A stretch of 23,366 nt of DNA from a virus. The stretch spans positions 1 through 23,366 of the IMG/VR virus record IMGVR_UViG_3300024346_000530; one strand, written 5' to 3'. The number at the start of each line of letters is the position of its first letter. Within the stretch, counting starts at the first letter, position 1. The notes under the pieces are model-generated. The model searched no databases and was not told where the DNA came from. It saw only the letters and a list, made by a program, of their open reading frames with translations. Below are positions 7,268 to 16,692 of the stretch, in pieces. Both the position numbers and the translations under genes were made by a program.

Positions 7268-7630
7268 TTACATTTCATTTCTTCTTAATACTCTTTCGAG
7301 TTTTCTCTCTATTTTTTTAGGGTTTGTAATGGTTCTTGTTCTGTCTGCACCTCTGTTTGTTTTAACATCAATCTGCATCGTACTATTGCCATCTTTATCC
7401 CTAATAACATTGTACTGCTTAAACTTTTGTTTACCATTCTCCTTGTCGGTTTGTTTTGTAAACTGAGCAGAACTTGACCCATCAGATGAATCTATAGTTA
7501 CCTTTTCTTTGTTTAATGCGGAATACTTCCCATTTATTTGCTTCTCTCTTGATTCCATAACGCTTTGAACTCTGTCAGTTATTGGCTCAGGAGTTGGTGC
7601 TAATGGTGTATCGGGTCTTTTAATTGCCAT
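7268..7630 (-). CDS. Small protein with N-terminal RPDTPL motif (120 aa)
   Basis: It starts MAIKRPDTPLAPTPEP, a motif shared with the next gene and with genes at 12668 and 12345. The rest is polar and basic, with a beta-rich middle (KFKQYNVIRDKDGNSTMQID) and a strongly basic C-terminus (KKIERKLERVLRRNEM). No membrane segment is seen. The basic tail could touch DNA. Function unknown; the shared head suggests docking on a common partner, perhaps in the virion. Confidence 0.75.
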   Translation of the reverse strand: MAIKRPDTPLAPTPEPITDRVQSVMESREKQINGKYSALNKEKVTIDSSDGSSSAQFTKQTDKENGKQKFKQYNVIRDKDGNSTMQIDVKTNRGADRTRTITNPKKIERKLERVLRRNEM

Positions 7631-7632
7631 AA

Positions 7633-7884
7633 TTACTTATTTTTATTAGTCATTCCAAATTTCTTACGTATTTTATCTGCCTCACTTAACATTTCAAATG
7701 TTTTTCCATTTTCCATATAATGAGTTTTATAAAACTCTCCTTCTTCTTTAGTTAATCTTTCTTTTCTAATTCTTGGGTCATTTTTCATTGAATCCATTAC
7801 TTCTTTTTCAGATTCAGAAAACTGACTGTAAGGTTTAGGTATTGGAGTATTTGCTAATGGGGTATCGGGTCTTTGAATTGCCAT
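7633..7884 (-). CDS. Small protein with N-terminal RPDTPL motif (83 aa)
   Basis: It starts MAIQRPDTPLANTPIPKP, near-identical at DNA and protein level to the start of the neighbouring 120-residue gene. The rest differs: a charged helical segment (residues about 24-75) ending in lysines. This looks like a head-motif duplication attached to unrelated bodies. It starts 5 bases after the spanin gene ends. Function unknown. Confidence 0.75.
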   Translation of the reverse strand: MAIQRPDTPLANTPIPKPYSQFSESEKEVMDSMKNDPRIRKERLTKEEGEFYKTHYMENGKTFEMLSEADKIRKKFGMTNKNK

Positions 7885-11157: not shown

Positions 11158-11313
11158 CTATATTTTATAAAATGTTTTGTTTATTAATAACTTTGGATTA
11201 TTCAATTTTTTCTTTCTTTCCGCACAAGGAACGCAATCTTTTCCAACAAGTGCTTTAATTCCTGTAGCTGTAGTAATTTTTTCTATTGTATCTCCTAATC
11301 CTTGTGATTTCAT
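11158..11313 (-). CDS. Small conserved-looking Cys-containing protein (51 aa)
   Basis: The sequence MKSQGLGDTIEKITTATGIK, followed by KDCVPCAERKKKLN, matches a recurrent tiny protein type in Bacteroidetes phages (SxGLGDTIEKxTxATGIK plus a Cys pair and a basic end). The CVPC pair could bind metal or form a redox site. Function unknown. It lies 5 bases before the 168-residue structural gene. Confidence 0.75.
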   Translation of the reverse strand: MKSQGLGDTIEKITTATGIKALVGKDCVPCAERKKKLNNPKLLINKTFYKI

Positions 11314-11336
11314 TTTGTAAAGGTATTAAATTTTAT

Positions 11337-11444
11337 TTACTTTTTCTTTGTAGTCTTACTTACGTTACCTTTTAGAAACTTCATCTTTCCATCTAACGAT
11401 TTCTTAGACTCGTACTGCTTTGCTTTTTCAATTACTTTTTTCAT
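11337..11444 (-). CDS. Very small basic protein (35 aa)
   Basis: Begins MKKVIEKAKQYESKK and ends VSKTTKKK, almost all Lys, Ser and Glu. It fills most of the gap between the candidate structured RNA and the 51-residue gene and starts just after the U-tract of that RNA. Not recognised; acceptance rests on position and on similarity in style to other tiny basic proteins here. Confidence 0.45.
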   Translation of the reverse strand: MKKVIEKAKQYESKKSLDGKMKFLKGNVSKTTKKK

Positions 11445-11467: not shown

Positions 11468-11751
11468 AAACCAAGGTCCTAACAAAAAATCGGGCACGTT
11501 TCCGTGGAGCCCCCACTTATAATCTCTAACCTACCCATTAAGTGGGCGATACGGTATGCTATTAATAAGATAGACAGTTGACTCTTGTCTAAAGATTTTG
11601 TCAGGGTAACTCATTCAAATCACTTAGGTCTTCCAACCTTACGCCATTCCTTTATTCAAGTATATGGTGGCACTAAAAGTCATACAATAATTACTTATGC
11701 TCATTGCCGACAGTCAGTAATGCTATTTAGCGAATTACTTTACCTTGGTTT
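11468..11751 (-). ncRNA. Candidate structured RNA with 10-bp closing stem and U-tract end
   Basis: No minus-strand gene fits here. A perfect 10-bp pairing closes the element (AAACCAAGGT 11468-11477 with 11742-11751), and on the minus strand its 3' side runs into TTTTTT, like an intrinsic terminator. Inside are hairpins at 11716-11739 (6 + 3 bp), 11571-11591 (TAGACA/TGTCTA), 11512-11546 (CCCACTTA/TAAGTGGG, 8 bp) and 11495-11506 (CACG-GAAA-CGTG, a GNRA tetraloop on the minus strand, with GGG/CCC flanks). A further helix 11641-11646 with 11668-11673 uses G-U pairs that work only on the minus strand. I see no group I intron, tmRNA or RNase P core. Confidence 0.65.
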
Positions 11752-12344: not shown

Positions 12345-12662
12345 TTATGCTTCTGTTGTTTTTTGTCTTCCTGTTGTTGATGCAAACGATGCCAATCCTG
12401 AAAGTCTTGAGCCTTCTCCTCCTGCAATAGATCTTTTTTGTCTGCTTCTTTCTGCTCTTGCCGCATCAACTACTTTTTGAGATGCATTTAGAGACGCTTG
12501 TCTTGCAGCACTTCTTGTATTAATATCAGACAATGCTGATTTTAAATCAGTAACAGGCGCAGTTGGGTCAGGACTTTCTCCTAACGGAGTATCAGGTCTT
12601 GTTTGATATACCTTAGCGGCATCTGCTTTTCTTTCTTCTTTAGTTTTTTTTACTATTCCCAT
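12345..12662 (-). CDS. Small helical protein with internal RPDTPL motif (105 aa)
   Basis: A basic N-terminus (MGIVKKTKEERKADAAKVYQ) precedes TRPDTPLGESPDPTAP, so the motif here is internal at about residue 22. A long Ala, Arg and Ser-rich helix follows (about residues 38-77), then a short tail. Probably an elongated helical protein. Function unknown, but it belongs to the motif-sharing group. Confidence 0.7.
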   Translation of the reverse strand: MGIVKKTKEERKADAAKVYQTRPDTPLGESPDPTAPVTDLKSALSDINTRSAARQASLNASQKVVDAARAERSRQKRSIAGGEGSRLSGLASFASTTGRQKTTEA

Positions 12663-12667
12663 AATTT

Positions 12668-12883
12668 CTATTGTTGAGGTGTTTCAGGCGCGGCAGGTGC
12701 GGTAGGTGCGGCAGGCGCCATTGCTTTTATTTTATCTATAGCATTATTCGCTGTTTGCTCAAATTTTGTAGCAGGTTTTTGTTGAGGAATCATTCCCATT
12801 TGCGGAGCTGCTTGTAATCCTGAGCTAACAGGTTGCGGTTCCGGTGTAGCCGCTAACGGAGTGTCGGGTCTTTGCATTGCCAT
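12668..12883 (-). CDS. Small Pro/Ala-rich protein with RPDTPL motif (71 aa)
   Basis: It starts MAMQRPDTPLAATPEPQP, then a Gln/Pro linker, one short helix (FEQTANNAIDKIKAMA) and an Ala-Pro-rich C-terminus (APTAPAAPETPQQ). Likely largely disordered. The DNA of its first 30 bases is nearly the same as that of the genes starting at 7630 and 7884, showing duplication across 5 kb. Function unknown. Confidence 0.7.
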   Translation of the reverse strand: MAMQRPDTPLAATPEPQPVSSGLQAAPQMGMIPQQKPATKFEQTANNAIDKIKAMAPAAPTAPAAPETPQQ

Positions 12884-13151: not shown

Positions 13152-13184
13152 CAAATGTATAAAAAAAAATTAAATGAAATCAAA
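13152..13184 (-). promoter_or_regulatory. Promoter TTTG-N21-TACATTTG driving the leftward small-protein operon
   Basis: The minus strand carries TTTG (13181-13184), a 21-base spacer and TACATTTG (13152-13159), fitting the flavobacterial consensus TTG-N17-23-TAnnTTTG. The upstream box lies inside the start of the divergent plus-strand gene. About 31 bases separate the -7 box from the ATG at 13120. Confidence 0.55.
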
Positions 13185-13614
13185 TCAAGATGATTACCTA
13201 AAATATTGGAGAGTAATTCGCCAATTTGCAAAGATTAAATATGAACTAACTCAGGCTGACTTAGATATGTTATTGTTCCTGTACTCTGAAAAGTATTTCG
13301 GAAGAGATAAGTTTGATGAGTTTGATAGCCTTTTAGGTTGGGATGTAACTCGTTTCTTTACACTTCAAAAAGATGGATGGATTGTAAAATTTAGAAATAG
13401 AGTTGGTAATAGAAAAGCTCTATATCAATTGACAATTAAATCAACAAGAATGATTCAGTCAATCTATAGAAAACTAAGCGGGGAAGAAATCCCCGTTAGT
13501 AATTCTAATAATAAAATGTTCTTAAAGAACGTATCATACTCAGATAAAGTTTATCGCGATATGATTATTGAAATGAATAAGATTATAAAACAACAACGAC
13601 ATCCCTCTCGGTAA
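13174..13614 (+). CDS. Winged-helix-like protein, lone plus-strand gene in a minus block
   Basis: A 146-residue protein. Residues about 8-95 show the helix-helix-helix then DGWIVKFRNR turn-wing and KALYQLTIKSTRMI helix order of a MarR-like winged helix. I recall similar proteins (LLFLYSEKYF, then SGEEIP) in Bacteroidetes phages. It could be a DNA-binding regulator of the flanking late operons, supported by its isolated orientation and own promoter. Its 3' end overlaps the groES 3' end by 32 bases tail to tail, so the two transcripts could interfere. A strong hairpin lies within its coding sequence at 13473-13500. Confidence 0.8.
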   Translation: MKSNQDDYLKYWRVIRQFAKIKYELTQADLDMLLFLYSEKYFGRDKFDEFDSLLGWDVTRFFTLQKDGWIVKFRNRVGNRKALYQLTIKSTRMIQSIYRKLSGEEIPVSNSNNKMFLKNVSYSDKVYRDMIIEMNKIIKQQRHPSR

Positions 13615-13840
13615 TAATCGTGTACTGCTTGTCATCAATTATCATTGTAAATCCGTGAGCCTTATCGTAGTAGATGTCATCATCTTTCTTGATATGTGGT
13701 ACATCAGTACCGCTTTCTACTACTAAGCCACGCTTGTAACGCATCTGATTCATATCTTCTCCTGAGAGAAACAATCCTGATTCTGTTTTCAACTCTTCAT
13801 CAATGGTCTTGATGACAATGTATTTACCTATTGGTTTCAT
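13583..13840 (-). CDS. groES: Co-chaperonin GroES (chaperonin 10)
   Basis: The lid of the GroEL chamber. At 85 residues it is about 12 shorter than bacterial GroES. Visible: the N-terminal strand MKPIGKYIVIK, the mobile loop ESGLFLSGED (residues 20-29) with the hydrophobic L-F-L that plugs into the GroEL apical domain, KRGLVVESG, and KKDDDIYYDK matching the GD-turn region. The C-terminal strand RDVVVVL fits the fold. The shorter loops may widen or change the chamber lid. It is the last gene of the groEL operon, in the reverse of the usual bacterial order (groES before groEL). Confidence 0.87.
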   Translation of the reverse strand: MKPIGKYIVIKTIDEELKTESGLFLSGEDMNQMRYKRGLVVESGTDVPHIKKDDDIYYDKAHGFTMIIDDKQYTIITERDVVVVL

Positions 13841-14081: not shown

Positions 14082-14286
14082 AATTTTTCGATTCGTCTTT
14101 CCAATTTAACCAAAAGCCAACAGCTACTATTATGTTCATTCCCATCGATGCTGCTATCTCGATAAGGTCGTGATAAATATTTACCGTTAGGTGTACGTGC
14201 CCTACCATCCAAAATGGTATTGATAGGTTACACGCCACCCATATCACAGTAAACCTTATGAACTCTTTAGTCTTGTGCCACCTCAT
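14065..14286 (-). CDS. Small membrane protein in the chaperonin operon (73 aa)
   Basis: Two likely membrane helices (about residues 10-28 and 45-60) with a short connector and charged ends. Not recognised. Its start overlaps the groEL stop by 20 bases, so its translation depends on groEL. A membrane protein between groEL and groES is odd and might tether or serve as a client of the chaperonin; that is speculation. Confidence 0.65.
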   Translation of the reverse strand: MRWHKTKEFIRFTVIWVACNLSIPFWMVGHVHLTVNIYHDLIEIAASMGMNIIVAVGFWLNWKDESKNYDKRD

Positions 14287-15883
14287 AAGAACGAGCTAAC
14301 GTAATTATGGCGTTAGTGCTCAAGATTGTTACAGCTACACTCACTGCATTCTGTAATGCTGAACGTGTTACTTTCAGTGGGTCAATTACCCCCATCTTAA
14401 TCAAGTCGCCATACTCTCTTGTCTTTATGTTTAGACCTTCTCCCGGACCTGCTCCATTAAGAGGATAATCATCTATAAGATTCAATCCTGCATTACTTAG
14501 TATTTGAAAGAATGGAGCTTTAAGAGCTTCGTTCATTATCATTCTTGCTGCAAAATGTTCTTCTGTCTCTCCTTCAAGACCATCTAAAAAACTTTCTTCA
14601 AAAAGAGCCTTTCCTGCACCCGGAAGAATCCCTTCCTCGAGTGCAGAACGTACTGCACAAACAGCATCATCGACTCTATCAAATAACTCTTTCTGTTCCA
14701 AATCTGTCTGTCCACCTACGAAAATTACCCCAATTCCACCCGTTAATGACGCTATTCTTTCTAAAATAAAGTCCTTATCGTGCTTCTTTATGGCGTTTTT
14801 ATGGGCATCCCATAGCTGATTTACCCTTTCTTCAATAGCTTTTTGGTCTAATCTAATGTCCGATTTGATGATAACGGTCTTATCCTTGCTAACAATTACC
14901 TTAGCCGCGTGCCCAAGGTCTCCGTAATTGATAATACTCAGGTCATCTCCGGTCTTTTCACTGAAGTATGTAGCGCCAACACTGATAGCGATGTCATACA
15001 TCAACTCGTGCTGCTTGTATCCGAAGCTCGGAGGGGGAACCGCGCATACTTTTATGTTTCCTTTGACAACATTTGCCGCCAAACTATTGATTAAGTTCTG
15101 ACCACAAGGAGAAATGATTAACAGTTTTTTTCCTTCTTGTACAATTGGTTTCAATATGTTCTCAATCTGAAGGATATTGGTAATCTCCATATCAGCAACC
15201 ATAATCATAACATCTTCAAAGACACATTCGTCTTTCTTAGAATCATTTATGAACATAGGACTCAAGTAACCTCTGTCGAATTTCAATCCTAACGTGGTCT
15301 CAGCATAGGTCTCATCGTTCTGACTCTTCTCTACTGTAACAATACCTGTCTTACCAACGTCTTTGTACACCTCTGAGATAATCTTCCCTATCTCTCTATC
15401 GTTATTTGCAGATATACTTGCAACATCTACCAACATCGCGCTTGTTACTCTTTTGCTTTTCTTCTTTAACTTATCCACCACCTTGTCGCTTAAGTCCACC
15501 AAGTTTCTCAATACCTCAGTACGATTTAAACCTGACTCTATGTGCTCAAGTCCACTCAACACAAATGCCTCAGTAAGCACAATAGCAGTTGTTGTACCAT
15601 CTCCGGCTGAGGTAGCAGTCTTCTCAGCTGCCTCCTTCATCATCTTAACCGCAAGGTTCTCACTTGGGTCCAATAAGTCGATTGATTTGGCAACAGTTAC
15701 ACCATCTTTGGTTACAGTGATACCGTGAGTATGGCTTGGGGATTCAATTAGCACAGGATTACCTCCCGGACCTAATGTACTCTTTACAGCTCTTGACATT
15801 TTTACAACACCACTGACTAATTTCTTTCTACCTACTTCTCCAAAACATAAATCCTTGGGAGAATAACCTTGATTTTCTAACAT
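14267..15883 (-). CDS. groEL: Chaperonin GroEL, phage-encoded
   Basis: A 538-residue group I chaperonin subunit that folds proteins in an ATP-driven chamber. Nucleotide-site motifs are intact: LGPGGN (37-42), KDG with D60 (hydrolysis, equivalent to E. coli D52), GDGTTTA (94-100, D95), and VDDAVCAVRSALEEGILPGAG with D406 (equivalent to D398). The apical domain has FDRGYLSP (202-209) and the region around 261-303 matches. It ends ARSYEVAQD with no Gly-Gly-Met tail, and PPPSFGYKQ replaces the usual KAPGFGDRR. The sequence is clearly divergent from host GroEL, so this is an established phage version rather than a recent copy. It starts at ATG 15881-15883 after AAAATCAAATCAA. Confidence 0.95.
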   Translation of the reverse strand: MLENQGYSPKDLCFGEVGRKKLVSGVVKMSRAVKSTLGPGGNPVLIESPSHTHGITVTKDGVTVAKSIDLLDPSENLAVKMMKEAAEKTATSAGDGTTTAIVLTEAFVLSGLEHIESGLNRTEVLRNLVDLSDKVVDKLKKKSKRVTSAMLVDVASISANNDREIGKIISEVYKDVGKTGIVTVEKSQNDETYAETTLGLKFDRGYLSPMFINDSKKDECVFEDVMIMVADMEITNILQIENILKPIVQEGKKLLIISPCGQNLINSLAANVVKGNIKVCAVPPPSFGYKQHELMYDIAISVGATYFSEKTGDDLSIINYGDLGHAAKVIVSKDKTVIIKSDIRLDQKAIEERVNQLWDAHKNAIKKHDKDFILERIASLTGGIGVIFVGGQTDLEQKELFDRVDDAVCAVRSALEEGILPGAGKALFEESFLDGLEGETEEHFAARMIMNEALKAPFFQILSNAGLNLIDDYPLNGAGPGEGLNIKTREYGDLIKMGVIDPLKVTRSALQNAVSVAVTILSTNAIITLARSYEVAQD

Positions 15884-16051: not shown

Positions 16052-16234
16052 ATGTCGATTTTATGTTTTCCCTACTCTCTCTTAGAAAATACTATACTAC
16101 TACTATTTTTTTGACTATAAAACTTACTCTTTTTTGACATTATCGACATTAAAAGAATAAAGTATTAATAATCAATTAGTTATAAAAATTAAGTTGTCGC
16201 AAAAACAACAGAAAATATAACCGGTTATGTCGAT
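16052..16234. repeat. Three ATGTCGAT octamers and a palindrome upstream of groEL
   Basis: The stretch 15917-16245 between groEL and the next gene has no convincing gene. It carries ATGTCGAT at 16052-16059 and 16227-16234 and its reverse complement at 16142-16149, about 85-90 bp apart. The last copy abuts a perfect 12-bp palindrome ATAACCGGTTAT (16217-16228). Protein-binding sites for control of groEL or for replication are possible. Confidence 0.4.
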
Positions 16235-16245
16235 TAATAATAAAA

Positions 16246-16276
16246 AGAAACCCACATTTAAAAATGCAGGCTTTCT
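16246..16276 (-). terminator. Intrinsic terminator after the 77-residue gene
   Basis: An imperfect hairpin pairs AGAAA (16246-16250) with TTTCT (16272-16276), CC with GG, and CATT with AATG. On the minus strand it is followed by a T-rich run (TTTTTATTATT). It closes the monocistronic 16291-16524 transcript and insulates groEL. Confidence 0.6.
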
Positions 16277-16290
16277 TTCTTGGGTTTTGA

Positions 16291-16524
16291 CTAATCACAC
16301 TCTCCCATCTCAGACATCATTTCTCCCATAGCAGTTCCTCTTGCTACAATAGAAATCTTCTCAGCAGTCTTCATAGCTTTCTTTACTTGAGCCGCCTGTG
16401 CAATACCACTCTGTCCATCAGGTCTGTTGTTAATCAACATACCATCTTTAATAGTTAAACCATCAAAAGACCCTACGTTCTTCTGTTGGTAAATACTGTT
16501 TCTTAAATTTAAAGGTTGTTTCAT
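16291..16524 (-). CDS. Hypothetical protein (77 aa), monocistronic
   Basis: Begins MKQPLNLRNSIYQQKNVG and ends GTAMGEMMSEMGECD. A helix with AAQVKKAMKTAEKISIVARG lies in the second half. Not recognised. An upstream TTG could extend it by 9 residues but would lie inside the promoter box at 16549-16556, so the ATG at 16522-16524 is preferred. With its own promoter and terminator it is a stand-alone unit at the edge of the divergent switch region. Confidence 0.7.
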   Translation of the reverse strand: MKQPLNLRNSIYQQKNVGSFDGLTIKDGMLINNRPDGQSGIAQAAQVKKAMKTAEKISIVARGTAMGEMMSEMGECD

Positions 16525-16548
16525 CTTATACGTATTTAAAGTGAGCAA

Positions 16549-16556
16549 CAAAGATA
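16549..16556 (-). promoter_or_regulatory. -7 box TATCTTTG for the 77-residue gene
   Basis: Exact TAnnTTTG on the minus strand, 24 bases before the chosen ATG. No TTG at normal spacing. The sequence upstream of it leads into the GT-rich repeat field. Confidence 0.5.
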
Positions 16557-16692
16557 GTGAATTTTATTAGGTGGGTGTAGTGTTTGGGTAGTACATAGGT
16601 TTGGCGTTGAGGTACCCCAACCGGAAGTCGTTTTATTTTTGATGGGGGGGGTTGTTGTTTGAAATTCCCTTTGCCGTTTTTTTGGCTTTTTT

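Follow-up and report, generated by a model that had tools for sequence, protein, structure and literature searches.

The packaging RNA (pRNA) of phi29-type phages is a phage RNA with branched helices. The expression platforms of riboswitches and attenuators are folded RNAs in which the closing helix adjoins a U tract. GOLLD and ROOL are phage-encoded, non-coding RNAs with an elaborate fold and no known function. In GOLLD, the 3' part is conserved and the 5' part is less conserved (PMC12286853).

A 284-nt region on the minus strand of a phage DNA of 23,366 nucleotides (IMG/VR record IMGVR_UViG_3300024346_000530; "the window" hereafter refers to this whole stretch) has features in common with all of them. 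It appears to encode a real, conserved and uncatalogued RNA. Like the pRNA, it is a phage RNA with branched helices; like riboswitches and attenuators, it is folded and its closing helix, P1, adjoins a U tract; like GOLLD and ROOL, it is phage-encoded, elaborately folded, non-coding and without known function, and, as in GOLLD, its 3' part is conserved and its 5' part less so.

The differences are the following. The RNA is longer than the pRNA, has no Rfam match, and lies within a late operon, with no sign of a link to the terminase. Whereas riboswitches and attenuators sit in leaders, it is found at the 3' end of an operon, it matches no ligand-binding family, and P1 would itself be the terminator stem. 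Many GOLLD members exceed 800 nt, and, unlike GOLLD and ROOL, the RNA has neither an accompanying tRNA gene in the window nor any sign of forming oligomers. The locus also resembles the intrinsic (Rho-independent) terminator of a sister phage, L002 (labels of this type designate related contigs), in its position between equivalent genes, its 10-bp outer stem and its U tract. However, the L002 terminator is a 19-bp hairpin with a 4-nt loop, while here the inner stem and loop are replaced by 264 nt of folded RNA. Fold predictions and the comparison of related phages lead us to propose, with a probability of about 60%, that this structured non-coding RNA makes up the folded 3' end of an operon transcript, in which P1 and the U tract would act as the terminator stem.

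Boundaries and predicted fold

Read 5' to 3' on the minus strand (11751-11468), the RNA starts with AAACCAAGGT and ends with ACCTTGGTTT, and is followed by TTTATATTTT. Because the first and last letters pair and the U tract comes next, the 10-bp terminal helix and the U tract are real. The preliminary description had indeed reported a perfect 10-bp pairing running into six U, and its coordinates are exact (AAACCAAGGU...ACCUUGGUUU, then UUUAUAUUUU). Three of these six U sit within the P1 stem, and the outer A-U pairs, which overlap the U tract, are weak. The inner seven pairs have probabilities of 0.94–1.0, in longer transcripts too, and deleting P1 costs 12 kcal/mol. P1 and UUUAUAUUUU thus show one mark of an intrinsic terminator, a stable stem that leads straight into a U tract, but P1 encloses 264 nt instead of the short loop of a compact hairpin.

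The MFE of the window RNA is −77.4 kcal/mol, compared to −64.1 ± 4.8 kcal/mol for dinucleotide shuffles (z −2.75, 1/200; z −2.84, 1/300 in a repeat run), and the plus strand folds less well (z −1.45 and −1.22). The homologous copy in the contig L089 reaches −95.1 kcal/mol (z −5.74, 0/200 shuffles; z −5.62 in a repeat). When P1 is left out, the inner 264 nt barely rise above chance in the window copy (z −1.3), as opposed to z −4.8 in the homologue.

One two-domain architecture is predicted for both copies: a three-way junction closed by P1 connects domain A (the 5' half) and domain B (the 3' half; Table 1). The helices P2 and P3 of domain A have pair probabilities of about 0.97 in L089, but of 0.1–0.4 in the window copy, where they form in a minority of states. 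Among the internal hairpins described earlier, the one with a GAAA tetraloop is part of the MFE structure, whereas the 8-bp stem CCCACUUA/UAAGUGGG is perfect but lies outside it; since forcing this stem costs 2.5 kcal/mol, it is an alternative fold. The GAAA hairpin and the GA-UUUUUU that follows could form a weaker first terminator within the RNA.

Table 1. Features of the RNA locus in the window (P, helix; letters a to f, hairpins)
Feature	Position	Strand	Remarks
Flavobacterial-type promoter, TTG...TACATTTG (−33/−7)	13152..13183	−	heads the operon ending at the RNA
Upstream gene, 69 aa	11760..11969	−	conserved copies in L001 and L002; in L089, the C-terminal part
Structured RNA, 284 nt, bounded by P1	11468..11751	−	fold z −2.8; homologue L089:7107-7387
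P1 5' arm, AAACCAAGGU	11742..11751	−	common to the plain terminator of L002
Domain A: P2 11738-11731/11613-11606, P3 11728-11722/11623-11617	11606..11738	−	consensus fold, pair probabilities, both copies
Domain A hairpins	a 11719-11671, b (variable) 11667-11644, c 11639-11626	−	consensus fold
Hairpin b, variable	11644..11667	−	18-nt loop in the window, GGGG-UUCG-CCCC in L089
Domain B: P4 11605-11594/11491-11478	11478..11605	−	consensus fold, pair probabilities, both copies
Domain B hairpins	d 11591-11571, e 11569-11516, f 11512-11492	−	consensus fold
Hairpin f, GAAA loop, then GA-UUUUUU	11484..11512	−	fold −9.4 kcal/mol
P1 3' arm, ACCUUGGUUU	11468..11477	−	common to the plain terminator of L002
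U-rich tract UUUUUUAUAUUUU, terminator-like, 3' of P1	11458..11470	−	from the sequence; first three U belong to P1
Downstream gene, 35 aa, ATG at 11444	11337..11444	−	homologues in L001, L002, L014, L018, L020, L027 and others

The region had been described as devoid of a credible minus-strand gene, which holds: the six frames of both copies are stopped, or broken between the copies, and none of them is a conserved reading frame. A 27-aa ORF in domain B (MSYPDKIFRQESTVYLINSIPYRPLNG) is open in both copies, and its two differences alter amino acids (I to N and I to K). The 59-aa GTG ORF (11516-11337) which overlaps the 3' end of the RNA is probably the 35-aa downstream gene, because the homologues of that gene start at the ATG at 11444.

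The homologous copy and the search for others

An exact scan of IMG/VR with a 19-base motif returned three contigs from separate metagenome records, all of which carry the RNA at the equivalent place in a sister phage lineage, with the fold retained. The three count as one independent sequence because L089 and L090 share 99.99% identity across 8.1 kb; only two distinct RNA sequences are known, that of the window and the L089 type. The identity of the L089 copy to the window is 91% across the surrounding 348 bp. It is unevenly distributed: the 3' half of the RNA and the 30 nt beyond it are 99% identical (172/174) and domain B differs at 2 positions only, while the 5' half is 81% identical. The surrounding 500-bp tiles are mostly 73–94% identical (one is at 63% and one has no match). 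The likeness of the 3' half would fit constraint, which would be strong on domain B, a recent exchange of the cassette, or both. At 99% identity, the 3' halves carry almost no covariation information.

When the MFE structure of the window copy is imposed on L089, four of the seven changed pairs are kept, and three pairs are broken, compared to 9.8 expected with random placement of the same substitutions (P about 0.0005, z −3.5). In the reverse test, with the L089 structure imposed on the window, six pairs are broken and 11.1 are expected (P about 0.01). The control tiles from the same phage pair (n = 36) have a mean z of −0.34 and a lowest value of −3.43, so the RNA is the extreme value, though by a narrow margin. 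In the stem of hairpin b, a C-G pair of the window is replaced by U-A in L089, with both sides changed. All seven changed pairs are kept in the RNAalifold consensus, three of them through double changes, in a fold for whose derivation the two copies themselves were used. As the sample amounts to two sequences, the covariation is thin, and the pair-preserving changes are good support for the fold, short of proof. The comparison with relatives which the preliminary description had called for thus shows a fold kept through substitutions in L089, in two distinct sequences only.

The preliminary description did not assign the RNA to a known class, in agreement with Rfam and ARAGORN. Rfam gave no match when the whole window was searched with E up to 1, and only chance matches, far below the gathering scores, for the window RNA and its homologue with E up to 10; neither copy matched GOLLD, ROOL or any other Rfam covariance model. 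No tRNA-like domain, tmRNA or tRNA was detected in the RNA by ARAGORN or Rfam.

Further copies were equally elusive. The blastn search of phages and plasmids returned short chance matches only, and a match in the Polaribacter phage Danklef was discarded (25 nt of AT-rich spacer, without the P1 3' arm). Exact scans of IMG/VR with four motifs found real copies in the same three contigs only; the motif matches in L092, L093, L096-L099 and L121-L123 are coincidental and mostly within coding sequence. Scanning genome contigs with one exact motif gave no match, and the per-domain covariance models found no new copy in the related loci or in the whole related contigs. Covariance models also found none in about 690 sampled Bacteroidota genomes, including Flavobacteriaceae, a weak negative for want of a positive control. 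Within the reach of these searches, the RNA is restricted to one small phage clade.

A separate match concerns the contig of L026 (L105, IMG/VR 3300020045_018958), which has an endolysin family in common with the window. Its positions 1344-1570 match the Rfam permuted tmRNA model (59.7 bits, gathering score 47) just downstream of an HNH-like frame, with a tRNA-Leu at 441-536. ARAGORN made no tmRNA call, and the region is a candidate phage-encoded permuted tmRNA.

The operon and its 3' end in related phages

The phage is related to phages of Flavobacterium and Cellulophaga, with flavobacteria-like hosts; its terminase is 44% identical to that of Flavobacterium phage elemoA and 76% identical to that of an uncultured Manatee Spring podovirus. 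Related contigs occur in both bacterial and archaeal metagenome bins, which give no certain host information.

The consensus of flavobacterial promoters is TTTG/TANNTTTG (PMC6847099). The promoter of this type in the window is followed by six small genes and then by the RNA, which begins 8 nt past the last stop codon, that of the 69-aa gene. The element also heads the operon in L001, L002, L011 and L089, where the spacer is one T longer. No promoter with the flavobacterial consensus was found directly ahead of the RNA. Past the RNA, a minus-strand element at 11311-11330 (TTTAATACCTTTACAAAATG) is conserved ahead of the next gene in L001, L002, L003 and L089 (TAATAYCTTTACAMAATG) and could serve as a weak promoter or in translation. 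The late region also encodes, on the minus strand, GroEL (14267-15883, 538 aa, Pfam Cpn60) and GroES (13583-13840, 85 aa, Cpn10). Several small proteins encoded at 7268-7884 and 12345-12883 (minus strand) have an N-terminal RPDTPLAxTP-like motif, as if a single short leader were repeated over the late genes.

In L002, the equivalent two genes flank a plain intrinsic terminator (AAACCAAGGTTACTAATAACATTTTATTAGTAACCTTGGTTTTT), whose outer 10 bp are those of P1 (AAACCAAGGT/ACCTTGGTTT). In L001, they flank an unrelated terminator hairpin with a T run, and seven more distant phages have a 96-aa gene between the homologous neighbours. This gene (MADKSKMQCNRP..., L027:783-1070) is highly conserved, with homologues in L003, L014, L015, L018, L020, L035, L036, L109, L115 and L095; the window and the 10–12 kb stretches of L001, L002 and L089 yielded no copy of it. 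One fixed site therefore alternates between a plain hairpin, an unrelated hairpin, a structured RNA and a protein gene in related phages.

The 10 bp shared with L002, between the same gene pair, indicate that the RNA corresponds to a terminator stem whose loop contains about 264 folded nucleotides. Either this inner RNA was gained by the window and L089 lineages, or it was lost in L002. The site thus offers a clean before/after comparison of a terminator with and without a large folded RNA, gained or lost, and it lends itself to testing directly if such a stem can close over 264 nt of intervening structure. It also provides a candidate RNA family for phages of Bacteroidota.

Possible origins and roles of the RNA

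According to the model that we favour, transcription from the promoter at 13183 would proceed leftwards via the six small genes into the RNA, whose two branched domains would be held by P1 in the three-way junction. Since P1 directly precedes the U tract, finishing the fold would finish the terminator stem. The RNA would then halt or throttle transcription towards the genes for tail and lysis, and could persist as a compact, exonuclease-resistant 3' end or as a released RNA. The equivalent stem and U tract of L002, between the same genes, and the other terminator hairpin of L001 argue for this model, as do the homologue with its retained fold, the pair-preserving changes, the lack of a conserved frame and the conserved promoter upstream. 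On the other hand, a 264-nt loop is atypical for an intrinsic terminator, and the stem may close too slowly; the weak outer pairs of P1, the thin covariation and the near-chance folding of the window copy without P1 also speak against the model. The RNA is probably produced together with a gene, as the folded tail of their common transcript. The stable phage RNA of about 284 nt that had been postulated is structured, non-coding and on the minus strand as described, but, given the terminal helix shared with the L002 terminator and the position at the operon 3' end, it is likelier to be terminator-embedded and co-transcribed than to be an independent gene with a promoter of its own. The roles in packaging, virion assembly or host control suggested for it are unsupported; a trans-acting or particle role is conceivable.

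More tentatively, the RNA could be an autonomous small RNA cassette that acts in trans on the phage or its host, P1 and the U tract being merely its own 3' end, and that moves between phages via recombination at the terminator. Such movement would fit the 3' half and its next 30 nt being far more alike in the window and L089 than most of the nearby DNA. It would also fit a distribution that is out of step with overall relatedness, in that L001 lacks the RNA although it is closest to the window across most of 8–11 kb; the elaborate fold, too, would suit an autonomous RNA. An autonomous cassette is harder to reconcile with an upstream gene only 8 nt away, with the lack of a flavobacterial-consensus promoter immediately 5' of the RNA, and with the failure to find another copy in the related records or in the sampled Bacteroidota genomes, which are weak negatives. 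It is doubtful that the RNA represents a new family of autonomous, late phage RNAs of about 284 nt, a terminator-lodged cassette spreading between phages and functioning in trans or in the form of an RNA particle.

Some mobile elements, e.g., class C group II introns, land in terminator hairpins. The site being a plain hairpin in L002, a decayed element (an intron, an insertion-element-derived repeat or similar) might have landed in the terminator loop and been kept passively. We consider this unlikely: Rfam matched the RNA to no intron or ribozyme, the RNA lacks an ORF, evident inverted ends and a second copy in the related records, and its structure is kept despite substitutions, with a nearly invariant 3' half. 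A group I or II intron was rejected, the familiar core motifs being absent by eye and Rfam silent. It is very improbable that ordinary intergenic DNA, or a dead gene, folds in this way by chance. The window copy alone, at z −2.8, and the 96-aa gene at this site in distant relatives could suggest it, but the homologue folds at z −5.7 and the changes preserve pairs. Likewise, the RNA resembles the 96-aa gene no more than chance (best E 0.58), and was rejected as a decayed form of it.

Elsewhere in the window, the minus-strand control tiles at 16218-16651 preserve pairs nearly like the RNA (z −3.43 and −2.43), and this region, beside a low-complexity stretch, is a possible second structured region.
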